12,911 bases of DNA from Pseudomonadota bacterium. GTDB taxonomy: Bacteria > Pseudomonadota > Gammaproteobacteria > Steroidobacterales > Steroidobacteraceae. The position numbers and the translations under genes were made by a program. Position 1 is the stretch's first letter; each line of letters opens with the position of its first letter. Below are positions 701-12,025 of this stretch, one piece after another. The stretch spans positions 1 through 12,911 of the forward strand of contig JAKAZP010000026.1 in assembly GCA_021815905.1 (NCBI GenBank), in the 5' to 3' direction. Below the pieces are notes generated by a model. The model saw nothing but the letters and a program-made list of their open reading frames with translations, searched no databases and had not been told where the DNA came from.

Positions 701-1053
701 TGGGCCCGGTAGGATTCGAACCTACGACCAAGGGATTCACTCTGCCCCGACGTTTCCGCCGGGAGTGGACTATCTCTTCACCCGCGAACGGGCGTGTCGC
801 CGGATGTCGGCGAGCCGCTCCATCCGGTGGGGTGCGGGATGCTCGTGCCTGTCATCAAGGGCGCTTCAGCCCTCAGGTAGTCTCTGCACCTTCCGGCGGT
901 GTACCGCCGGCTCGGCTCAGGATTGCCATGAGCCGGACCGGGATCGGCCGCTCGAAGGTTCCCCTGAATTCATCCCGTCCACTGTGCGCGTCATCCGCGC
1001 ACAGGCACCTTTTTCCGATGAGTCCCCTGCACTAACCGCTGTGCTACAGGCCC
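701..1053 (-). tRNA. tRNA-Ile(CAU), interrupted by a group I intron
   Basis: Exon 1 is 1053-1018 (36 nt) and exon 2 is 737-701 (37 nt). Joined, they give a complete 73-nt cloverleaf: acceptor GGGCCTG/CGGGCCC with discriminator A, D stem GCAC/GTGC, anticodon stem GGGGA/TCCCT with loop CTCATAA, and T arm GTAGG-TTCGAAT-CCTAC. The CAU anticodon and overall sequence match the minor isoleucine tRNA of proteobacteria, not initiator or elongator tRNA-Met. In that tRNA, C34 is converted to lysidine by TilS so that it decodes AUA. CCA is not encoded: the bases after the discriminator are AAC, so the tail must be added by CCA-adding enzyme. The split falls directly 3' of the anticodon (positions 36/37), the same target as the well-known Azoarcus tRNA-Ile intron. 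The assignment as Ile rather than Met is very likely but rests on recalled similarity. Confidence 0.93.
738..1017 (-). ncRNA. Group I self-splicing intron (IC3-like) in tRNA-Ile(CAU)
   Basis: This 280-nt intron runs from just after the anticodon CAT to a terminal G at 738. Pairings visible on the minus strand: the internal guide GGTG at the intron 5' end pairs with exon CAT, giving the U-G wobble at the splice site (P1); P2 at 983-1003 (8 bp); P3 at 971-977 with 835-841 (CGGGATG/CATCCCG); P4 joining the ATTCAGG and CCTGAG segments (about 963-969 and 917-923); P6 hairpin 893-910; P7 at 878-882 with 768-772 (GACTA/TAGTC); P8 base 830-834 with 779-783, extended by a 7-bp hairpin 800-827; P9 hairpin 746-763 with a GAAA tetraloop. 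The core strings AGGTGCAGAGACTA, GGCAATCCTGAGCC and AGATAGTCC match the conserved P/Q/R/S elements of cyanobacterial tRNA-Leu and Azoarcus tRNA-Ile introns (subgroup IC3). No homing endonuclease frame is present. The extra length over the roughly 205-nt Azoarcus intron sits mainly in P7.1 (about 848-877) and P8. Confidence 0.92.
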
Positions 1054-1134: not shown

Positions 1135-2619
1135 TCAGTTGGAGGGACCGTAGCCCGGTGGCGCCCGGAAGCCGCCGAATTCCCGCTCCGCGAGCTGCGC
1201 GAACGCCACGGTCGTGCGGTCCTCGAGATACGGGCCGATGACCTGGGCGCCGATCGGCATGCCGTCGGCATCCTGTCCCACCGGCATCGCCGTGGCGGGC
1301 AGTCCGCAGAGGGACGCCGGGCCGGCCCAGACCCCCAGGGCGGCGTACGGGAGCGGCCGGCCATCGATCGCGATGCGACGCTGATCGACTTCGCGATCAT
1401 CGTGCTCGAAGGCGGTAACCGGCAGGACCGGACAGATCACGACGTCCCAAGCTCGAAAAAGCGCGCGCCATTGATGCTGCAGGAGAGTGCGCGTGCGTCG
1501 GGCGCGCAGCCAGTCACGGTGACTGGCGAGCAGCGCCCGCTGCCGTATCGGGTCCGAGTCCGTGCCGGGCTCGGCGGCCGACGGCGTCCTCTGCCGCCGC
1601 GCCTCGTACGCCGCATCCGGAAGATTCGCGCCGATGAAGGCAAGCAGCAGCAACCCGAAGGTCTCGTCGATCAGGGCGAGGTCGGGCAGCATCGGGCTCG
1701 AGCGCTCGACCGCGCACCCGGTGTCGGCGAGGCGGTCCGCGAAGCGGCGGATCGCCGCTCGCACCTCGGCCGAGAGCGGCAGCAGGGGATGCTCATCGAG
1801 CACCAGCGCCTTGAACTCGCCGAGGCGCGCATGGCGGGCCGGGGGCAATGCCAGGCGGCACGCAATCGCATGCGGATCGTCCGGCCCGGCGAGCACATCG
1901 AGCGCGAGAGCGAGATCACCCGCCGAGCGGGCCATCGGTCCGACGACCCCGAGATCCGGCTCCGGGTCGACGTCGAGCTCCGGCGCGCCGGGCGGTGCGT
2001 GTCCGCGGCTCGGCACCAGGCCGAGGGTAGGCTTGTGGGCGAACACCCCGCAGCAGTGCGCCGGCACGCGCAGCGAGCCGGCAAGATCGGAGCCGAGCTC
2101 GAGCGGCACCAGCCCGGCGGCGAGCGCCGCGGCCGAGCCGCCGGAGGAGCCGCCCGGCGTGCGCTCGAGACTCCACGGGTTGCGGGTGCGGCCGTAGAGC
2201 GCGTTCGCGCACTGCCAGTCGCCCAGGTTGGTCGGGATGTTGGTTTTGCCGATGATCACCGCCCCGCTCGCCTTGAGACGGCGAACGGCCACCGCGTCCT
2301 GGCTCGCGCGCGTACCGCGGGCGCCCGCGAGCCCCCAGGTCGTCGGCAGACCCGACACGTTGAAGGCTTCCTTCACCGTCATGGGCACCCCGAGCAGCGC
2401 TCGCCGCTCCCCGCGGGCGAGCGCCTCGTCGGCCGCACGCGCCGCGAGGCGTGCGCGCTCGAAGTCGCGGACGACGATCGAGTTGAGATCGCCGTCGCGC
2501 GCCTCGATGCGTTGCAGGGTGGCCTCGAGCGCTTCCCGCGCCGAGAGCTCCCCCGCGGCGAGCGCGCGCGCCAGCTCCGCAGCCGTCGCGTAGGGGGTGG
2601 CCATCAGCGGCTCACGCAT
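1135..2619 (-). CDS. Amidase-signature family hydrolase
   Basis: It hydrolyses a carboxamide bond through a Ser-cisSer-Lys triad; the physiological substrate is unknown. Counting from ATG 2604, the catalytic Lys is K78 (PMTVKE), the cis-Ser is S153 in GGSSGGS, and the nucleophile is S177 in GSDLAGSLR. The spacings of 75 and 24 residues match those recalled for fatty acid amide hydrolase. The normally Gly-Gly-Ser nucleophile loop reads Ala-Gly-Ser. The VPAHCCGVFAHKPT stretch is typical of amidases related to cyclic-dimer/oligomer hydrolases. At about 490 residues it has full family length and no signal peptide, so it is cytosolic. Two in-frame ATGs compete: 2619 (20 bases after the symporter stop) and 2604. 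Neither has a strong ribosome binding site, and 2604 starts closer to the usual family N-terminus. It is the last gene of the DUF3311-symporter-amidase run, suggesting that it acts on the imported solute. Confidence 0.93.
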   Translation of the reverse strand: MREPLMATPYATAAELARALAAGELSAREALEATLQRIEARDGDLNSIVVRDFERARLAARAADEALARGERRALLGVPMTVKEAFNVSGLPTTWGLAGARGTRASQDAVAVRRLKASGAVIIGKTNIPTNLGDWQCANALYGRTRNPWSLERTPGGSSGGSAAALAAGLVPLELGSDLAGSLRVPAHCCGVFAHKPTLGLVPSRGHAPPGAPELDVDPEPDLGVVGPMARSAGDLALALDVLAGPDDPHAIACRLALPPARHARLGEFKALVLDEHPLLPLSAEVRAAIRRFADRLADTGCAVERSSPMLPDLALIDETFGLLLLAFIGANLPDAAYEARRQRTPSAAEPGTDSDPIRQRALLASHRDWLRARRTRTLLQHQWRALFRAWDVVICPVLPVTAFEHDDREVDQRRIAIDGRPLPYAALGVWAGPASLCGLPATAMPVGQDADGMPIGAQVIGPYLEDRTTVAFAQLAEREFGGFRAPPGYGPSN

Positions 2620-2639
2620 GTGCGGCGTCCGCGGCCCCC

Positions 2640-4139
2640 TCAGCGCGGGACACGGCGTTCGCCCCCGGCGGCTCCGAAGAGCTCCGCCTCGGCCGCGAGC
2701 GGGGCGCGCCCGCGCCATCCGAGCGCCGGCTCGAGCAGGGTGAGCAGCAGCACCACCGCGAAGTTGGCGCACAGTCCCACGAAGCCGGCATCGATGCCGA
2801 GGAACGGGTTGCGATCCGTCAACATCAGGAAGCTGGCCACGACGATGCCCGCGACGATGCCCGCGAGCACCGAGCGCGCCGTGATCCGTCGCCAGTACAA
2901 CCCGAACAGAACGCCCGGAAAGAACTGGGCGACGCCCGCGTATCCGATCAGCAGCAGACCGACCAGCGTCTTCGAGCTGAACAGCGCGAGATAGAGGCTG
3001 ACCCCGCCGATCACGATCACCATCGCGCGCGCCAGGCGCCCCACCGCCGCATCGCTCATTCCGGGGGCGATGAGCGGCCGGACGAGGTTCTTGGCGAACA
3101 GGGTCGCCGCCGTCAGCGTGAAGACCGCGGCCGGCACCATGGCGGTGAGCGCGCCGGCGCCGCCCACCAGGCCGAGGAACCAGGGCGGAAACGTCTGACG
3201 CACGACCGTGAGCAGCGCGAGATCCCCGTCCGGGAGGCCGGGCACGGCGACCAGCGCCGCGAACCCCGCGATGAAGATCAGCACGAGCACCAGGTTGTAG
3301 AGCGGCAGCACCATGAAGTTGCGCCGCAGCGCATCGGCGCTCTTCGCCGTGAAGGCGCTGCCGAACAGGTGCGGCCACATGAAGCCCCCGAGCGCCGAGA
3401 GCAGCACCGTCGAGACGTACCAGGCGTGTCCGAGATCCTTCGTGCCGCCCGGCATGGTCAGGTGCCCGGGGTGCAGCCGCGCGAGAGTCGCGAACATCGG
3501 GCCCACGCCGCCGAAATGGATCAGTGGAATGCCGATGCCGATGGCCACGGCCGCCAGGAGCATCAGTCCGTCCTTCACCACGCTCACCCAGGCGATCGCC
3601 CGAATGCCGTTCGCGAACACGAACGCGACGAGCAGCCCGACGGCGCCGATCATCGCCGCATCGCGGCCGATGCCGCCGAAGCTCGTGATGGAGGCGATGA
3701 TGCCGAGCCCCGTGATCTGCAGCTGGATGTAGGGAATGAAGGAGCCGATGCCGACGAGACACACGAGCCCCGCGAGATACCGGTTGCCGTAGCGCCAGGC
3801 GAAGAAGTCGGGTTGGGTCTGCATGCCGGTGCGCTTGCCGAGCTCCCAGATCTGCGGAAGGATGAAGAATCCCACGATCTCGGCGAGCGGCAGATACGCC
3901 AGGATGTAGAGTGTCGGACCGCCTCGGGAGTAGGCCCAGCCGCTCGCGCCGAGAAATGAGAAAGTGGTGAAGGCCTCGCCGGCCATCAGCAGGAACACGA
4001 GCACGGCCCCGAGCCGCCGGCCGCCGACCACCCACTGCTCGAGATCCATGACGCGCCGCCGCCCGGCGAGAAATCCGACGCCCGTGCCCGCGGCCACCAG
4101 CGAGAACATGACGATCAGGCTGACGCTCGCCGCGCTCAT
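2640..4139 (-). CDS. Sodium:solute symporter (SSS) family permease
   Basis: This is a 499-residue inner-membrane protein with about 13 hydrophobic segments, as expected for the SSS family (PutP/MctP/SGLT fold), which couples solute uptake to sodium influx. Visible family features include the TM2 region GEAFTTFSFLG (54-64), SFIPYIQLQITGLG (133-146), and the late-helix segment QFFPGVLFGLYWRRIT (405-420), an SSS hallmark. The substrate cannot be read from sequence; monocarboxylate, amino-acid or amide-like solutes are all possible. The start ATG overlaps the stop of the upstream DUF3311 gene by 4 bp, implying translational coupling. A DUF3311 protein directly before an SSS permease is a recurring arrangement, which supports treating the pair as one transport unit. 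The downstream amidase begins 20-35 bases after its stop. Confidence 0.95.
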   Translation of the reverse strand: MSAASVSLIVMFSLVAAGTGVGFLAGRRRVMDLEQWVVGGRRLGAVLVFLLMAGEAFTTFSFLGASGWAYSRGGPTLYILAYLPLAEIVGFFILPQIWELGKRTGMQTQPDFFAWRYGNRYLAGLVCLVGIGSFIPYIQLQITGLGIIASITSFGGIGRDAAMIGAVGLLVAFVFANGIRAIAWVSVVKDGLMLLAAVAIGIGIPLIHFGGVGPMFATLARLHPGHLTMPGGTKDLGHAWYVSTVLLSALGGFMWPHLFGSAFTAKSADALRRNFMVLPLYNLVLVLIFIAGFAALVAVPGLPDGDLALLTVVRQTFPPWFLGLVGGAGALTAMVPAAVFTLTAATLFAKNLVRPLIAPGMSDAAVGRLARAMVIVIGGVSLYLALFSSKTLVGLLLIGYAGVAQFFPGVLFGLYWRRITARSVLAGIVAGIVVASFLMLTDRNPFLGIDAGFVGLCANFAVVLLLTLLEPALGWRGRAPLAAEAELFGAAGGERRVPR

Positions 4140-5029: not shown

Positions 5030-5647
5030 GTGTTCTTGCCGCAAACCGATGTCATACCCGTGTTCAAGGCAAGCTCCCGGCCCATCGAAGCTCAAGAGTT
5101 CACAGCGTTCATGCGCGCGTATCAGGACATGGTCTTCTCGACCGCAGTCCGCCTGACCGGCAGCCCCGCCCAGGCCGAGGACATCAGCCAGGAAGTATTC
5201 CTCAAGGCGTACTCGAGCTTCGATCGGCTGCGCGAAAGCCCGACGGCCGGAGGCTGGCTGAAGACCGTCGCCACCCATCTCGCGCTCAATCATCTCACCC
5301 GCTACCGTCGGCGCTGGCGGCTGTTCTCCGAGCAGTTCGCGGATGATGCGGGTGAGCCGGAGGTCGAGTCGGCCGCCACGGTGTTCGATGCGCTCTCCTG
5401 CGAGATGGAGGCCGAGCAGCGCTCGAGCCTCATCGAGCGGGCGCTCGGGCAGCTGCCCGATCACCAGCGCGTGCCGCTCGTGCTCTTTCATTTCGAGGAG
5501 ATGCCGTACCAGGACATTGCCGCGCGCCTCGGCGTCTCCCTGTCCAAGATCAAGACCGACATCCTGCGCGGACGGCTCGCGCTCGCGAAGCTGCTCGCCG
5601 CCGGCGGTCTGGAGTCTGAGGCTGCGCCGGCCGGAGCCAAGTCATGA
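5030..5647 (+). CDS. ECF-type RNA polymerase sigma factor
   Basis: A 205-residue extracytoplasmic-function sigma factor that would direct RNA polymerase to a small regulon, probably including its own operon. The sigma-2 region spans about 23-97 (YQDMVFSTAVRLTGS, AEDISQEVFLKAYSSFD for core binding, then GGWLKTVATHLALNHLTR for -10 recognition). A linker of about 35 acidic residues follows, then sigma-4 at about 132-190 with its helix-turn-helix (MPYQDIAARLGVSLSKIKTDILRG). There is no C-terminal extension of note. The start is uncertain: GTG 5030 is the first candidate after an in-frame TGA at 4991, but it lacks a close ribosome binding site; GTG 5060 would remove ten residues and still keep sigma-2. 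Its stop overlaps the next gene's ATG by 4 bp. ECF factors are normally held by a co-encoded membrane anti-sigma, which fits that neighbour. Confidence 0.93.
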   Translation: MFLPQTDVIPVFKASSRPIEAQEFTAFMRAYQDMVFSTAVRLTGSPAQAEDISQEVFLKAYSSFDRLRESPTAGGWLKTVATHLALNHLTRYRRRWRLFSEQFADDAGEPEVESAATVFDALSCEMEAEQRSSLIERALGQLPDHQRVPLVLFHFEEMPYQDIAARLGVSLSKIKTDILRGRLALAKLLAAGGLESEAAPAGAKS

Positions 5648-6120
5648 ACCCGCGAGAGAGCGCCGAGAAGAAGCTCGAGGAACTGGCCGGACGGGTGTTG
5701 CGGCAACAGCCGCTGCGCAAGGCGCCGGCCGCACTCGAGACGCGCGTGCTGGCGGAGATCGGCCGGCGCGCGCGCCGCCCGTGGTGGCGGCAGAGCATCG
5801 CAGGCTGGCCGGCCGGCGGGCGGGCGGTGCTGATCGGAGCCTCGTTGAGCTGCATCCCTCTGCTCTGGTTCCTCGCGCCGTGGCTCTGGACTCGGCTCAC
5901 GAGCGCCGCGGGAGAAGCCGGCCCGATTGCCGCGATCGCTCAGTCGGGCCGCGTGCTGCTCACGCTGGCGGCCGCGAGCGCGCGGGTGGCCGATGCCATC
6001 CCCCGCGACTGGCTGCTCGGGGGCCTGGTCACCGCCGGCGCGCTCTACTGCGCGCTGTTGGCCCTCGTCTATTCACTGCTTTACCTGAGTCCCCAAGACA
6101 CGAAGGCTCGGCCCCTATGA
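5644..6120 (+). CDS. Small membrane protein, putative anti-sigma factor
   Basis: A 158-residue protein with no confident family match. Residues 1-48 are cytosolic, helical and charged (AEKKLEELAGRVL, then LETRVLAEIGRRARRPWW). They are followed by a hydrophobic helix at about 60-82, an amphipathic middle region (about 95-118) and a second hydrophobic helix at about 123-147. An N-terminal cytosolic helical segment followed by membrane helices, encoded immediately after an ECF sigma gene with an ATGA overlap, is the usual layout of a cognate anti-sigma factor. No zinc-binding HxxxCxxC (ZAS) motif is present, so if it is an anti-sigma it belongs to a zinc-free class. Its own stop overlaps the next gene's start by 4 bp. 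The role is inferred from position and topology. Confidence 0.7.
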   Translation: MNPRESAEKKLEELAGRVLRQQPLRKAPAALETRVLAEIGRRARRPWWRQSIAGWPAGGRAVLIGASLSCIPLLWFLAPWLWTRLTSAAGEAGPIAAIAQSGRVLLTLAAASARVADAIPRDWLLGGLVTAGALYCALLALVYSLLYLSPQDTKARPL

Positions 6121-7637
6121 AGAATCTCACCCGGCTGCTGCCGTGCGCCCTGCTCGCACTGCTCGGCGGCTCCGTCCTCACCGCCCACGCCCAGGACGTG
6201 AGCACGTGGTCCGACCGGGGCGATCACCAGGTGGTCGCCATCGGCCACAATGCGCACCTTCCCGCCGGAGAGAGCGCCCAGGAGGTGGTCTCGGTCTTCG
6301 GCTCGACGACCGTCGACGGCGACGTCTCGGACTCGGCCGTCGCGGTGCTCGGCGACCTCACGGTCAACGGCACGGTCTCCAACACCGCGGTGGCGGTGCT
6401 CGGCGACGTCTACATCAACAACAAGGTGCGGGGCGATGTCGTCGGGGTACTCGGCAACGTGACCCTCGGGCCGCAGGCGGTCGTCGAGGGTCAGGTCGTC
6501 GAGATCCTCGGCTCGCTGCACCGGGACCCCGGCGCCGTGATCGACGGCGGCACGGTCCACGTGCTCTCGGGCGTCTTCACCCACGCGGAGAGCCTGCACG
6601 GCTGGATCGGCCGCTGCCTGCTCTACGGCCGTCCGCTCGCGCCGACGCTCGAGATCGGCTGGGCCTGGGGCGTCGCGCTCGGGGCGCTCGCGCTGTATCT
6701 GCTGCTGGCGGCCGTGTTCCGCGACGGCCTGCAGCGTTGCGTCTCGACGCTCGAGAGCCACCCCGGGGAGTCCGTGCTCACCGCGCTCATCGTGACGCTG
6801 CTGGTACCGGTCGTATTGCTCTCGCTGGTGTTCACGGTGGTCGGCATCGCGGTCATTCCGCTCTTCTGGATCGCGCTCATCTGCGTCGGAATCTTCGGCC
6901 GGGTGGTCGCTCTCGGCTGGCTGGGGTCGCGCTGCATTCGCCTGACGCACGCGGGCAGCGGTGCCACACCGGTGATCGATGTCCTCGTGGGAGGTCTGCT
7001 CGTGCTGGCTCTTTACATGGTTCCGGTCCTCGGGCTCATCGTCTACCTGCTGATCGGGATCGTCGGCTTCGGCGCGGTCGCCTACACGATACTGCTCGGC
7101 GCGCGCTCACGGCGCGCCATGGCGCAGTCCGCCGAGCCGCAGCTCGCCGCGGCGGGCGCCATGCCCCCGCCTCCTCCACCGCCTCCCGCCGACGCGGGCG
7201 CCGCCGCCGCCGTCCCGGGGACCGGAGCGCCGGCCGCCGCCGAGCTGCTCTCCGCAACCGCTTACCCGCGCGCGGGGTTCTGGATCCGCATGGTGGCGCT
7301 CCTCATCGATCTGATCCTCGTGGGAGTGGCCCTGAGCCTCCTGGACCACTTCACGCAGGCAACGCTCGTCGTGCTCGCCACCTACGGAGCCATCATGTGG
7401 AAGATGAAAGGCACGACGATCGGCGGCATCGTGTTCGATCTGAAAGTGGTGCGCCTCGACGGCCGGCCGGTGGACTGGAGCACCGCCATCGTGCGCGCGC
7501 TCGGCTGCTTCCTCTCGCTCGTGGTCGCCTGCCTCGGATTCATCTGGATCGCCTTCGATCGGGAGCACCAGGCCTGGCACGACAAGATCGCGGGCACGGT
7601 GGTGGTGCGCGTGCCCAAGGGCGTAGGACTGGTGTAG
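6117..7637 (+). CDS. Exported beta-repeat / transmembrane / RDD-domain fusion protein
   Basis: A 506-residue protein with an unusual three-part build. Residues 1-26 are a signal peptide ending in Ala-His-Ala-Gln. Residues 38-151 hold about six short repeats of 16-19 residues around a V-V-x-V-[LF]-G-[DNS] core (VVSVFGSTTVDGDV, VAVLGDLTVNGTV, VAVLGDVYINNKV, VVGVLGNVTLGPQ, VVEILGSLHRDPG), like the beta-helix of bactofilin/polymer-forming proteins, here placed in the periplasm. Four or so hydrophobic helices follow (about 183-202, 219-246, 247-268, 286-328). After a Pro/Ala linker (349-376, with eight consecutive Pro) comes an RDD membrane domain (383-500) with RAGFWIRMVALLIDLI and the closing FDREHQAWHDKIAGTVVV motif. 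ATG 6117 is chosen because it overlaps the previous stop (ATGA) and begins the signal peptide. It may sense or stabilise the envelope in the same pathway as the sigma factor; the function is not known. Confidence 0.88.
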   Translation: MKNLTRLLPCALLALLGGSVLTAHAQDVSTWSDRGDHQVVAIGHNAHLPAGESAQEVVSVFGSTTVDGDVSDSAVAVLGDLTVNGTVSNTAVAVLGDVYINNKVRGDVVGVLGNVTLGPQAVVEGQVVEILGSLHRDPGAVIDGGTVHVLSGVFTHAESLHGWIGRCLLYGRPLAPTLEIGWAWGVALGALALYLLLAAVFRDGLQRCVSTLESHPGESVLTALIVTLLVPVVLLSLVFTVVGIAVIPLFWIALICVGIFGRVVALGWLGSRCIRLTHAGSGATPVIDVLVGGLLVLALYMVPVLGLIVYLLIGIVGFGAVAYTILLGARSRRAMAQSAEPQLAAAGAMPPPPPPPPADAGAAAAVPGTGAPAAAELLSATAYPRAGFWIRMVALLIDLILVGVALSLLDHFTQATLVVLATYGAIMWKMKGTTIGGIVFDLKVVRLDGRPVDWSTAIVRALGCFLSLVVACLGFIWIAFDREHQAWHDKIAGTVVVRVPKGVGLV

Positions 7638-7646
7638 GAGACTCCT

Positions 7647-8954
7647 TTGCACGCCAAATCGGAAAGAGAGCCGGCCGCCGCACTGCGCACCGGCACCGGC
7701 ACGGAGCCGGGCTCGCCGCCGGAGCATCCGCCGGCGGGGACCCGTCAGTCCCCGATGGCATGGCTCGGCCGCGAGGCCGCCCCCGGCGAGCCCCCGGCAC
7801 AGGAACGCGCCGCGCCTTCCGGCGTGCCCCCCCTCGGCGTCTGGCCGCGCAAGCGGCTGCGCCTCATCGGCGGCGCCGCGCTCGCCCTCGCGGTCGCGGC
7901 GGCGCTGTGGCTGCACTTCGCCACCCGGGCCCCCGCCGGCGTGCCGCTCGCCGACCAGCACCACATTCCGCTCGTCAGCGTCATGGTCCCCGGCGTGCGG
8001 CCGGTGGCCACGCAGGTGATGGTGACCGGCACCATCGAGGCGCGCCACGATCTGCCGATCGGCGATGCCGGACAGGCCGGCCGCATCGATGCGGTGTACG
8101 TGCAGGTCGGCGACCATGTCAGAAAGGGCCAGGTGCTCGCGCAGCTCGATGACTCGGTGCTCGCGCCGCAGGTCAGCGAGCTCGTCGCCTCCCTCTCGCG
8201 TGCGCAGGCCCAGGCGAAGCTCTCGGCGGCGGAATATCGCCGCGCGCTGGCCATCGGCCCGCAGGGAGGACTGTCCGCGCAGAACATCGAGCAGACGCAG
8301 GCCACCGCGGACATGGACGCCGCCAACGTCAAGATGGTGGCGGCGCAGCTGGCGCAGAAGCGCGCCGACCTGGCGCTGACCCGCGTCGTGGCGCCGGTGT
8401 CGGGCATCGTGCTCACCCGCAGCGCGGAAGTCGGTCAGGTCGCGAGCCCCGGCGGCCCCGCGCTCTTCACCATCGAGGACGGCGGCAAGGTCGAGCTGGT
8501 CGGTCAGGTCGCGGAGCAGGACCTGTCGGCCCTCAGGGTCGGCCAGCGCGCCTCGGTGCAACTGGTCGGCTATCCGCAGCCGTTCCCGGGCCGCATCTGG
8601 CTGCTCGGCGCCACCATCGATCCGCAGAACCGGCTCGGGCAAGTGCGCATCGCGCTCGATCCCAACTCCGCGCTGCGCCCGGGCGCCTTCGCGCACGCCA
8701 CCATCCTGGTCAGCCGGGCCGAGCGGCCGGTCGTGCCGCAGACGGCCATCCAGTCGGACGGCTCGGGAACCTATGTCTACATCGTGAACGGTCGCGGCCG
8801 GGTCGTGCGGCGCAACGTGCAGGTGGGCAACGCCATCGCCTCGGGCGTGGTCGTCACCCGGGGCTTGAGCGGTCGCGAGCGCGTGGTGAGCCTCGCGGGC
8901 GGGTTCCTGCAAAGCGGCGAAGCCGTCGACGTGGCGGAGAGCAAGCACACGTGA
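7647..8954 (+). CDS. RND efflux pump periplasmic adaptor (membrane fusion protein)
   Basis: A 435-residue membrane fusion protein of the HlyD/AcrA type that would bridge the inner-membrane RND pump and an outer-membrane channel. Order: an unusual Pro/Ala-rich cytosolic N-terminal extension (1-70), one anchoring helix (72-92) instead of a lipoprotein signal, lipoyl half-motifs at about 133-170 (IDAVYVQVGDHVRKGQVLAQLDD) and 244-275 (TRVVAPVSGIVL), a helical hairpin between them (171-243), a beta-barrel (282-355) and a membrane-proximal domain (356-430). The start is TTG 7647, supported by TAGGAG (7635-7640) six bases upstream and overlapping the stop of the preceding gene; ATG 7755 would delete 36 residues and has no comparable site. 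Its stop overlaps the pump's GTG (GTGA), so the two are translationally coupled. Confidence 0.93.
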   Translation: MHAKSEREPAAALRTGTGTEPGSPPEHPPAGTRQSPMAWLGREAAPGEPPAQERAAPSGVPPLGVWPRKRLRLIGGAALALAVAAALWLHFATRAPAGVPLADQHHIPLVSVMVPGVRPVATQVMVTGTIEARHDLPIGDAGQAGRIDAVYVQVGDHVRKGQVLAQLDDSVLAPQVSELVASLSRAQAQAKLSAAEYRRALAIGPQGGLSAQNIEQTQATADMDAANVKMVAAQLAQKRADLALTRVVAPVSGIVLTRSAEVGQVASPGGPALFTIEDGGKVELVGQVAEQDLSALRVGQRASVQLVGYPQPFPGRIWLLGATIDPQNRLGQVRIALDPNSALRPGAFAHATILVSRAERPVVPQTAIQSDGSGTYVYIVNGRGRVVRRNVQVGNAIASGVVVTRGLSGRERVVSLAGGFLQSGEAVDVAESKHT

Positions 8955-11900
8955 GGAAGCTCTCCGCCTGGGCGATCCGGCACCCGCTGCCGCCCATCGT
9001 GATCTTCACCGTGCTGCTGCTCGTCGGCGCGGTCGCATTCATACGGCTGCCGGTCACGCTCAACCCGCACATCTCCTACCCCATCGTGTCGGTGACGGTC
9101 AGCCAGCCGGGCGCCGCGCCCGAGGAAGTCCAGACGCAGATCGTGCGGCGCGTCGAGGCGGCCGTGGCCGGGATCGGCAACATCCGCCACATCTTCTCCA
9201 CGGCGTACGAGGGGGGCGAGGAGACCGACGTCCAGTTCCAGATCGGCACGCCGATCGATCGCGCGGTGGAGGAAGTGCGGGACTCGGTCTCCCAGGTGCG
9301 CCCCGATCTGCCGGCCGACATCATGCCTCCCGTGATCCGGCGGGTGAACGTCTCGGGCGGACCGATCGGGTATTACGCCGTGAGCTCGACCACCATGAGC
9401 GCGCGACAGCTCTCCTGGTTCGTCGATGACACCGTCACCAAGACGCTGTTGACCATCCCGGGCGTCGCGCAGGTATCCCGCTACGGCGGCGTGGACCGGG
9501 AGATCCGCGTGGAGCTCGACCCGGCGCGCATGCAGGCGCTCGGCATCACCGCCTCGCAGGTGAACGATCAGCTCGACAACCTCAACGTCGACCTGCCCGG
9601 AGGTCGGGCGGACCTCGGCGACGGCGAGCAGACCATCCGGGTGCTCGGCGGCGCCCACACCGCGCAGCAGCTCTCGCAGACCCAGATCGTGCTGCCCGGA
9701 GGCCGCTTCGCGCGGCTCGGCGACATCGCCACCGTGCGCGACGGGGCCGCCGAGGTGCGCGACATCGAGCTCTACGACGGCCAGCCGGCCATCTCCTTTG
9801 CCGTCTCGCGCGCGCGCGGCTCATCGGACGTGTCCGTGCTGCGCGGCGTGCAGGCCGAGCTCGCGAACATCCGCAAGGAGAATCCCCGCGTCCGGATCAA
9901 CCGGACCTTCACCTCCGTCACCTACACCGAGCAGGAATATCACTCGGCGATCACCGCGCTGATCGAGGGCTCGATCCTCGCGGTGCTGGTGGTGTGGCTG
10001 TTCCTGCGCGATACGCGCGCGACGCTCGTGTCCGCGCTCGCCATCCCGCTGTCGGCCATTCCCACCTTCGCATTCATGAAGTGGATGGGATTCACGCTCA
10101 ACTTCATCAGCCTGCTGGCGCTGTCGCTGGTCACGGGCGTGCTGGTGGACGACGCCATCGTCGAGATCGAGAACATCGTGCGCCACAAGCGCATGGGCAA
10201 GAGCGCGCTGCAGGCCTCGCTGGATGCCGCCGACCAGATCGCGCTCGCGGTGGTGGCGACCTCCTGCACCATCATCGCGGTGTTCGTGCCGGTGAGCTTC
10301 ATGGGAGGCATCATCGGGCAGTACTTCATCCAGTTCGGACTGACGGTGGCCTCGGCGGTGTTCTTCTCGCTCATGGTGGCGCGCCTGCTGACGCCGGTGA
10401 TCGCCGCCTACACGCTGAAGTCCGATCCGCTGCCCGAGCTCCGCGACGGGCCGATCATGGCCTGGTACCTGAAGGTGCTGCACTGGTGCGCGGTGCACCG
10501 CTGGAAGACCATCCTGTTCGGCGTGTTGTTTTTCGCCGCTTCCGTGGTCGGGCTCGCGCTCATTCCCAAGACCTTCATAGCGCAGTCGGACGAGAGCAAC
10601 GCGGCGCTGCACATCGAGCTGCCCCCCGGCGTGCAGCTCGCCGACACCGCGAAGGTCGCGAAGCGGGTCTACGGAATCCTCGCCCGCGCCCCGGAGGTGA
10701 CCGGCATCTACGAGTCGATCGGCGGCGGCGGCAGCGATGTGCGCGATGCGAACTTCTACATCACGCTGGTCCCGCCCGACCGGCGCAAGCTGAGCCAGCA
10801 GCAGTGGCAGGACAGGATGATCCGGCGGCTGCGCACCATTCCCGATGCGCGCATCTATTTCCAGAACTTCAACGGCGGCAGCGACGGCCACGACATCACC
10901 ATCGACCTCACCGGGGACAACCTCGCGCTGCTCGAGCGCACCGCGCGCAAGGTGATGGGGCAGATGGCAGGGCTGCACGACCTGCGCGGCGTCAGCTCCG
11001 AGGACGGCCTGCCGCGGCCGGAGATCCGCATCACGCCGCGCTTCGACCTCGCGGCCCAACTCGGGGTCACGGTGGCGGACATCAGCCAGACCATCCGCAT
11101 CGCCACCATGGGCGATCTGATGCAGAACGACGCCAAGTTCACCCTGCCGAACCGTCAGATCCCGATCCTCGTCAGCCTGAGGCGCTCGGCGCGCGGCGAT
11201 CTCGCGACGCTCGAGAACCTGCCCGTGCCGACCTCCGGCGCCGGCTCCGTGCCGCTCAAATCGGTCGCCGATTTCAGCTTCGGCGAGGGACCGACCTCGA
11301 TCCACAGCCGTGACCAGCATCTGCGCATCGCGATCGATGCCGATCTGAACGGCGTGCAGCTCGGGGAGGCGATGAAGGAGATTCACGCCCTGCCGGCGCT
11401 CGAGCATCTGCCCCCCGGCGTGCGCCTGGTGCAGACCGGCAACGCACGGCTGATGAAGGAGCTGTTCACCGACTTCGTCATCGCCATGGGCACGGGCATC
11501 CTCATGGTGTTCGCGGTGCTGGTGCTGCTGTTCGCGCGGGTGCTGCAGCCGCTCACCATCCTGTCCTCCCTGCCGCTCTCCCTCGGCGGGGCGGTGGCGG
11601 CGCTGTGGCTCACCGACAATCCGCTCTCCCTCGGGGTGATGATCGGATTCCTGATGCTCATGGGCATCGTCGCGAAGAACTCCATCCTGCTCGTCGACTT
11701 CGCGATCGAGGAGATGCGCGCCGGCAAGAATCGGCTCGAAGCCCTGCTCGAGGCCGGCCACAAGCGCGCCCGTCCCATCGTGATGACCACCGTGGCGATG
11801 GTGGCGGGCATGCTGCCGGTGGCGCTGGTCGTCGGCGACGCGTTTCGCGCGCCCATGGCGATCGGTGTGATCGGCGGCCTGATCACCTCCACGGGACTGA

Positions 11901-12025
11901 CGCTGATCGTGATTCCCGCCGCCTTCACCGTGATCGATGACATCGAGCGCTGGCTCGGCCCGAGGATCGGGCGCGCGCTGCTCGCGCAGTCGCCGCCGGC
12001 CGCCGCGCCGGTCGAGGCCCGATGA
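8951..12025 (+). CDS. RND multidrug efflux transporter, HAE-1 family
   Basis: A 1024-residue AcrB/MexB-like inner-membrane pump of complete length, driven by the proton gradient and exporting hydrophobic or amphiphilic compounds. It shows the internal duplication of the family: TM1 (about 14-32) followed by a large periplasmic porter loop (33-335), helices 2-6, then TM7 (about 521-539) with a second periplasmic loop and helices 8-12. The proton-relay residues are in place: D400 and D401 in GVLVDDAIVEIEN (TM4) and K909 in GIVAKNSILLVDF (TM10). The porter signature SQPGAAPEEVQTQIVRRVE (51-69) is also typical. The substrate is not predictable from sequence. Start GTG 8951 overlaps the adaptor stop. 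No outer-membrane factor gene follows before the convergent TPR gene, so a TolC-like channel must be supplied from elsewhere. Confidence 0.95.
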   Translation: MRKLSAWAIRHPLPPIVIFTVLLLVGAVAFIRLPVTLNPHISYPIVSVTVSQPGAAPEEVQTQIVRRVEAAVAGIGNIRHIFSTAYEGGEETDVQFQIGTPIDRAVEEVRDSVSQVRPDLPADIMPPVIRRVNVSGGPIGYYAVSSTTMSARQLSWFVDDTVTKTLLTIPGVAQVSRYGGVDREIRVELDPARMQALGITASQVNDQLDNLNVDLPGGRADLGDGEQTIRVLGGAHTAQQLSQTQIVLPGGRFARLGDIATVRDGAAEVRDIELYDGQPAISFAVSRARGSSDVSVLRGVQAELANIRKENPRVRINRTFTSVTYTEQEYHSAITALIEGSILAVLVVWLFLRDTRATLVSALAIPLSAIPTFAFMKWMGFTLNFISLLALSLVTGVLVDDAIVEIENIVRHKRMGKSALQASLDAADQIALAVVATSCTIIAVFVPVSFMGGIIGQYFIQFGLTVASAVFFSLMVARLLTPVIAAYTLKSDPLPELRDGPIMAWYLKVLHWCAVHRWKTILFGVLFFAASVVGLALIPKTFIAQSDESNAALHIELPPGVQLADTAKVAKRVYGILARAPEVTGIYESIGGGGSDVRDANFYITLVPPDRRKLSQQQWQDRMIRRLRTIPDARIYFQNFNGGSDGHDITIDLTGDNLALLERTARKVMGQMAGLHDLRGVSSEDGLPRPEIRITPRFDLAAQLGVTVADISQTIRIATMGDLMQNDAKFTLPNRQIPILVSLRRSARGDLATLENLPVPTSGAGSVPLKSVADFSFGEGPTSIHSRDQHLRIAIDADLNGVQLGEAMKEIHALPALEHLPPGVRLVQTGNARLMKELFTDFVIAMGTGILMVFAVLVLLFARVLQPLTILSSLPLSLGGAVAALWLTDNPLSLGVMIGFLMLMGIVAKNSILLVDFAIEEMRAGKNRLEALLEAGHKRARPIVMTTVAMVAGMLPVALVVGDAFRAPMAIGVIGGLITSTGLTLIVIPAAFTVIDDIERWLGPRIGRALLAQSPPAAAPVEAR

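Follow-up and report, generated by a model that had tools for sequence, protein, structure and literature searches.

A group I intron in a tRNA-Ile(CAU) gene of a Steroidobacteraceae bacterium, with relatives at the same site in other bacteria and in viral contigs

The group I intron of Azoarcus sp. BH72, about 205 nt long, occupies an anticodon-loop site, where an internal GUG guide pairs with the CAU of the exon. It is named as the Azoarcus pre-tRNA-Ile group I intron in the available part of PMC3984707. Group I introns in the tRNA-Ile2 genes of Acidovorax and Burkholderia are described in the accessible text of PMC8450103, according to which such introns account for a missing fMet or Ile2 tRNA in 36 genomes and tRNAscan-SE is by design not meant for genes split in this way. 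Cyanobacterial tRNA group I introns, one of them in tRNA-fMet with an endonuclease of its own, appear in titles cited by PMC3984707 and in PMC8450103. For phage introns, the available part of PMC3984707 describes collaborative homing, in which an intron without a gene and a free-standing endonuclease share a target site, and a proposed route to composite introns.

The stretch of DNA analyzed here (the window, 12,911 nt) carries a further member of this known kind of intron, larger and with an extra P7.1 helix. It shares with the Azoarcus intron the host tRNA-Ile, the anticodon-loop site, and the CAU/GUG pairing, and differs from it in its length of 280 nt, in the extra P7.1/P7.1a module, and in the sequence of P4 (the Azoarcus site, pairing, and P4 being taken from general knowledge). 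A reading made earlier from the sequence alone had called the intron a larger, IC3-like relative of that of Azoarcus, the subgroup being a candidate assignment; the difference in length comes in part from P7.1/P7.1a, which its list of helices did not include. The Acidovorax and Burkholderia introns, likened here by their description in the accessible text alone, have the same host tRNA; the bacterium here is probably a gammaproteobacterium close to Steroidobacterales, as placed by the intron tree. The cyanobacterial introns, as described there, share the anticodon region but lie in other tRNAs, and the window intron has no endonuclease gene. Collaborative homing, in the part of the source available, concerns phage genes such as psbA, whereas bacterial and phage tRNA genes are concerned here, and in relatives only. 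A search of the open-licence PubMed Central literature found no report of gammaproteobacterial or Bacteroidota members. On its own, the window finding extends known biology only modestly. The split gene and its neighbors are as follows.

701..737, minus strand: 3′ exon, 37 nt, tRNA nucleotides 37-73; CCA not encoded
738..1017, minus strand: group I intron, 280 nt, without an endonuclease gene; omega-G at 738
1018..1053, minus strand: 5′ exon of tRNA-Ile(CAU), nucleotides 1-36, ending ..ACTCAT with the anticodon CAU last
5030..12025: genes for a sigma factor, an RDD protein, a fusion protein, and an RND pump

Joining the exons (1053-1018 and 737-701) gives a 73-nt tRNA(CAU) whose cloverleaf has 7 acceptor, 4 D, 5 anticodon, and 5 T pairs, 21 of 21 standard, with the intron directly 3′ of the anticodon. 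The sequence-only reading had proposed this cloverleaf and a 280-nt insert (1017-738, ending in G), and both proved right to the base. A CAU anticodon within a standard cloverleaf is the pattern of a lysidine-type tRNA-Ile(CAU), and the two splice-site marks of group I introns, a U.G pair at the 5′ splice site and a terminal omega-G, are both present. Two protein frames cross the locus, 28-1035 and 573-1241 on the plus strand, as had been noted earlier. We are nearly certain that this is a tRNA-Ile(CAU) gene with a group I intron that is self-spliced from the pre-tRNA, and that the spliced tRNA reads AUA.

P1 and P2 to P9 can be drawn with standard pairs in the window intron, among them every helix previously listed, including P1 with its U-G wobble, and the conserved core P3-P8 with P7 that characterizes group I introns is present. 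The proposed helices are listed below, with changes on both sides counted among 36 aligned genes.

1006..1020, minus strand: P1, formed by the exon CAU (1020-1018) and the internal guide GUG (1008-1006)
982..1004, minus strand: P2 stem (1004-996/990-982; loop 995-991); 8 of 9 pairs change on both sides
834..979, minus strand: P3, strands 979-972/840-834, around P4-P6, the P7 5′ strand, and P7.1
917..967, minus strand: P4 (967-963/921-917), P5 (958-957/927-926), and P5a (953-950/933-930)
888..916, minus strand: P6 (916-914/890-888) and P6a (910-904/899-893); 5 of 7 P6a pairs change on both sides
768..882, minus strand: P7, strands 882-878/772-768, invariant in 36 of 36
848..877, minus strand: P7.1 (877-874/851-848) and P7.1a (873-869/862-858), between P7 and P3
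780..833, minus strand: P8 (833-830/783-780), its apical part enlarged
738..767, minus strand: P9.0 (767-764/741-738, omega-G included) and P9 (763-757/752-746, GAAA loop)

The Rfam group I model RF00028, run with an E-value threshold, matched the window at 746-1030 on the minus strand over its full length (model positions 1-253 of 253), with a score of 42.2 bits and an E-value of 2.7e-9. This is below the gathering score of 50 bits, which is why a default Rfam scan of the window (gathering scores) listed nothing; ARAGORN run on the window listed no tRNA. Automated finders can miss such genes, as the earlier reading remarked; this one, whose tRNA would depend on a ribozyme, escapes both a widely used tRNA finder and Rfam at its default setting. 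A covariance score below threshold had also been named beforehand as grounds for giving up the intron, and taken literally the score is below it. We do not regard this as a refutation, because the E-value is low and because 24 of 26 genomes with relatives have an RF00028 match above the cut-off, which is a library convention rather than a structural feature.

Relatives were collected with a DNA pattern covering the 5′ exon end, P4, and P6, in one genome per species, which gave at least 120 stretches; the same tRNA with the same insertion site was parsed in 110 of 120 among the matches listed. The parser required that the 3′ exon begin with AA and that five pairs form in the anticodon stem, and left free the last base of the intron, the T-stem pairs, and the acceptor pairs. 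Among the matches listed, the T stem had 5 of 5 pairs in each parsed relative, the acceptor stem had 7 pairs in most (6 in L007, L038, and L078; the 5′ end of L101 is masked), and omega-G was terminal in 111 of 111 introns, the window included; these 111 measured 204-334 nt, with a median of 250. Of the ten unparsed loci, eight are truncated at the end of the sequence available for them, one (L027) is degenerate, and one (L050) has a longer intron. L027 (1104-1295), from a low-coverage bin, holds a degenerate tRNA-Ile and an intron without its 3′ part, possibly through an assembly fault. An artefact of assembly or a chimera has next to no chance of explaining the insert, as the same structure occurs at 110 other loci among the matches listed, several of them from named isolates.

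The closest relatives among the matches listed (L073, L045, L058, L052, and L117) are 86-92% identical to the window over the gene and cluster with it at 97% SH-aLRT in the intron tree. Class labels on this tree need 5 changes, against a minimum of 4, so descent of the intron looks mostly vertical; 25 of the 111 rows have no class, the trees are quick ones with long branches, and the phage and Bacteroidota introns are not firmly placed. Same-site introns lie in Bacteroidota tRNA exons at L068 (6598-6928) and L059 (2472-2789), one of the two from the isolate Splendidivirga corallicola. Among the matches listed, P7.1/P7.1a has the CCUG/CAGG form in 100 of 111 introns, and a module of other sequence stands at the P7.1 position in L019, L047, L053, L059, L068, L085, and L105 (pairing judged by eye). 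The module is absent from the compact, Azoarcus-type introns of L007, L016, L038, and L039 (204-208 nt). Of 147 genomes in the order of genome G003, 32 have the strict intron pattern and 62 have an RF00028 match, above the cut-off in 43; the RF00028 count includes 23S rRNA introns such as L129. In two intron-bearing genomes, second group I matches lie in 23S rRNA genes (L129 and L134), and that of L134 is below the RF00028 cut-off.

For covariation, 36 aligned genes were chosen out of the 111. In these, 95.0% of the cells of the proposed helices are paired, compared with 85.4% after shuffling. Changes on both sides occur in 29 of 69 pairs, and not one of 500 shuffles reached any of five measures. 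In slid controls the paired cells fell to 27-43%, a comparison favored by the structure having been drawn on the window itself. P4, P5, P7, P7.1, and most of P3 are invariant, so covariation is uninformative there. Each of the P1 pairs CG, AU, and UG occurs in 35 of 36 genes, two pairs of P7.1a change on both sides, and P9.0 is 100% paired, with 2 of its 4 pairs changing on both sides. P5a is paired in 54% of cells and was retained because its length varies and the alignment is poor there. The earlier proposal that a group I intron splits the tRNA-Ile(CAU) anticodon loop, with insertion at the Azoarcus-type site, is supported by the 110 relatives among the matches listed, by covariation, and by the intronless tRNAs of related genomes described below.

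The minimum energy of the window intron was below that of 200 of 200 shuffles (z −5.1). Of the proposed helices, the minimum-energy fold keeps P2, most of P3, P7.1a, P8, and P9 and is without P1, P4-P7, P7.1, and P9.0; the proposed core structure is founded on covariation and homology and not on this fold. An inner P8 pairing (826-820/791-785) was excluded from the structure, 157 of 191 cells pairing and a local hairpin competing with it; it is nevertheless held by the minimum-energy fold.

The score below the Rfam cut-off would also suit a decayed intron that no longer splices, leaving a pseudogene tRNA and AUA read by another tRNA. So would the P2 loop (991-995, GAUGA), which has one extra base in the window only when compared with 25 aligned relatives (26 introns). 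The extra base may weaken a tertiary contact known from Azoarcus. We give decay only a slim chance, since every core helix and each of the 21 tRNA pairs is able to form, the five close relatives have the same architecture, and no spare copy was found in 56 intron-bearing genomes.

That search used a pattern allowing at most one mismatch, covered many incomplete bins, and is blind to a divergent copy or to a tRNA-Ile(UAU). The pattern matched 4 of 4 intronless control genomes, and its only matches in the 56 genomes were CTT (lysine) tRNAs. The exons of the Bacteroidota genome G025 were unsuited to it, and a looser pattern found no intronless copy either. The earlier view that splicing is essential unless a second copy exists thus stands for the relatives, to the extent that the 56 genomes, many of them incomplete bins, hold no intronless copy; the window tRNA itself is probably essential and would depend on a ribozyme.

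A CAU anticodon alone is ambiguous, and ARAGORN labels a plain CAU tRNA as Met, so the split gene might encode a methionine tRNA rather than a tRNA-Ile with lysidine. Weak to moderate evidence argues against this: a separate CAU tRNA of other sequence is present in one intron-bearing genome (L135), CTCATAACCC-type CAU tRNAs occur in others of the order, the intron-bearing genomes gave no other Ile(CAU) match, and, of 12 intron-bearing genomes of relatives, 10 have a TilS match above the cut-off (in the other 2 it is below). We hold a methionine tRNA to be slightly less probable still than decay, and keep the isoleucine assignment.

The exact joined 73-mer occurs without an intron in 4 of 8 intronless related loci fetched. 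Near three of these four tRNAs lie the sigma factor, fusion protein, and RND pump genes that the window also has, and in these three the tRNA and the sigma gene are on the same strand, unlike in the window. The site thus occurs both occupied and empty, with some of its neighborhood conserved, which fits precise gain or loss of the intron at the tRNA site, as judged from these comparisons.

Computation shows the splice sites, the tRNA, a structure that is conserved and covaries, and that no spare copy turned up in relatives; splicing itself, the use of guanosine, and lysidine we infer from the family. The pre-tRNA would fold so that the guide GUG pairs with the exon end CAU, U1018.G1008 marking the 5′ splice site. 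A free guanosine in P7, the helix expected to bind it, would attack after U1018, and the released 5′ exon would then attack after omega-G738, joining the exons. The spliced tRNA would receive its CCA end and a TilS-made lysidine at C34, allowing it to decode AUA. As the window intron has no homing gene of its own, it is at present most likely inherited along with the tRNA. How the intron family spreads is a separate and less certain question; a plasmid search for the intron gave no match.

A candidate homing gene was found beside relatives and not in the window. In a Saprospiraceae bin (L050, 5586-6344), a group I intron of 685 nt interrupts the tRNA-Ile(CAU) gene, and its loop L1 holds an HNH-like frame that is open (5658-6077, 139 aa). 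The protein has no Pfam match; its relative at L031 matches PF01844 just above the cut-off. With a model built from nine such proteins, the HNH family was found to adjoin the tRNA in 12 of 110 parsed loci among the matches listed, kin loci being counted, or in 12 of 107 once loci with less than 400 nt of 5′ flank are set aside. Eight of these 12 had contributed to the model; L010, L026, L052, and L082 had not. All 12 neighbors lie on the 5′ side of the tRNA and are divergent from it; with the incomplete loci L033 and L098 and with L334, the total among the matches listed is 15. Ten frames are open (L005, L006, L010, L031, L034, L062, L082, L095, L097, and L118), with the ATG 62-239 nt from the tRNA. 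From their sequences, the HNH genes at L026 and at L052, a sister of the window, look like remnants, and that of L098, matching in two frames, may be broken.

In the order of genome G003, the HNH gene stands beside 3 of 32 intron loci, against 0 of 48 intronless loci (Fisher p 0.06). This leaves the link between HNH and intron unproved in that order, because of the p value and because the 48 were drawn among the matches listed, one of them (L302) is without 5′ flank, and two of the three HNH-bearing loci are the same as L033 and L098. Whether the HNH gene is simply an ordinary conserved gene was also considered and rejected: the protein was found in 1 of 200 Lysobacterales genomes, that one being the search centre and the reach of the search for divergent copies being uncalibrated, and it is therefore no common gene of that order. 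The intron pattern was present in 7 of the same 200 genomes.

The strict intron pattern matched four IMG/VR contigs, and a looser core pattern gave at least 120 stretches on viral contigs; combined, these made 122 viral loci. Among the matches listed, the core lies inside a tRNA gene in 22 of the 122, and six of the 22 have a CAU anticodon and the same insertion site.

L144, 5173-5490: viral tRNA(CAU) with intron
L145, 610-915: viral tRNA(CAU) with intron
L146, 148-451: viral tRNA(CAU) with intron
L147, 8781-9094: viral tRNA(CAU) with intron
L174, 1427-1736: viral tRNA(CAU) with intron
L255, 8160-8477: viral tRNA(CAU) with intron

A scan of neighboring genes covered selected ORFs at 20 of the 22 loci, leaving out L200 and L252. 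Endonuclease-like ORFs overlap the tRNA ends in four of the six CAU loci (L144, L145, L174, and L255) and also in L165, L237, and L263, which have other phage tRNAs and a 222-223-aa endonuclease ORF over the tRNA 5′ end; in L207 the distance to such an ORF is 45 nt, and in L146 it is 812 nt. These counts come from intron-bearing loci, and phages often carry endonucleases in any case. Near the intron-bearing tRNA(CAU) of L174 is an ORF (2521-3165) of the PP-loop family PF01171. TilS is a member of this family, and the ORF suggests that this phage tRNA(CAU) is an isoleucine tRNA. A terminase was matched in L147 and L145 and weakly in L146; none was found in L144, L174, or L255, contigs that may be fragments. 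The terminase model also matches 11 of 14 control genomes, so the support for a phage origin is modest.

Phage introns known up to 2014 were all in protein genes, according to the available part of PMC3984707. No report of phage tRNA introns was found in the literature searched, which included the accessible parts of PMC7886860, PMC12386605, PMC6125680, and PMC3984707.

Together, the neighboring endonuclease and the phage copies suggest a candidate, testable account of how the intron spreads. Under collaborative homing, the window's intron family would spread at a single essential tRNA site. A small HNH endonuclease would be free-standing and divergent beside the 5′ exon in some bacteria, would have entered loop L1 of the intron in the Saprospiraceae genome (L050), and would have decayed in the window's own sister lineage (L052), while phages with intron-bearing tRNA(CAU) genes, often overlapped by an endonuclease, would carry the intron across hosts and phyla. 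We put this forward tentatively and, taken as a whole, judge it somewhat more likely to be wrong than right. If it is true, one family shows both states, from the ORF-less intron to the composite mobile intron. Should the HNH enzyme cleave tRNA-Ile DNA at the empty site, the much-debated origin of composite mobile introns, in which a free-standing endonuclease meets an ORF-less intron, becomes testable with natural intermediates, and phage tRNA genes become a likely carrier.

In a search of phage records, the only match was one of 62 bases to the core, found in two records that both belong to Synechococcus phage S-SRM01. There, at L148 (2408-3216), an unannotated group I core match lies beside a split psbA, which is adjoined by genes for a homing endonuclease and an endonuclease VII.
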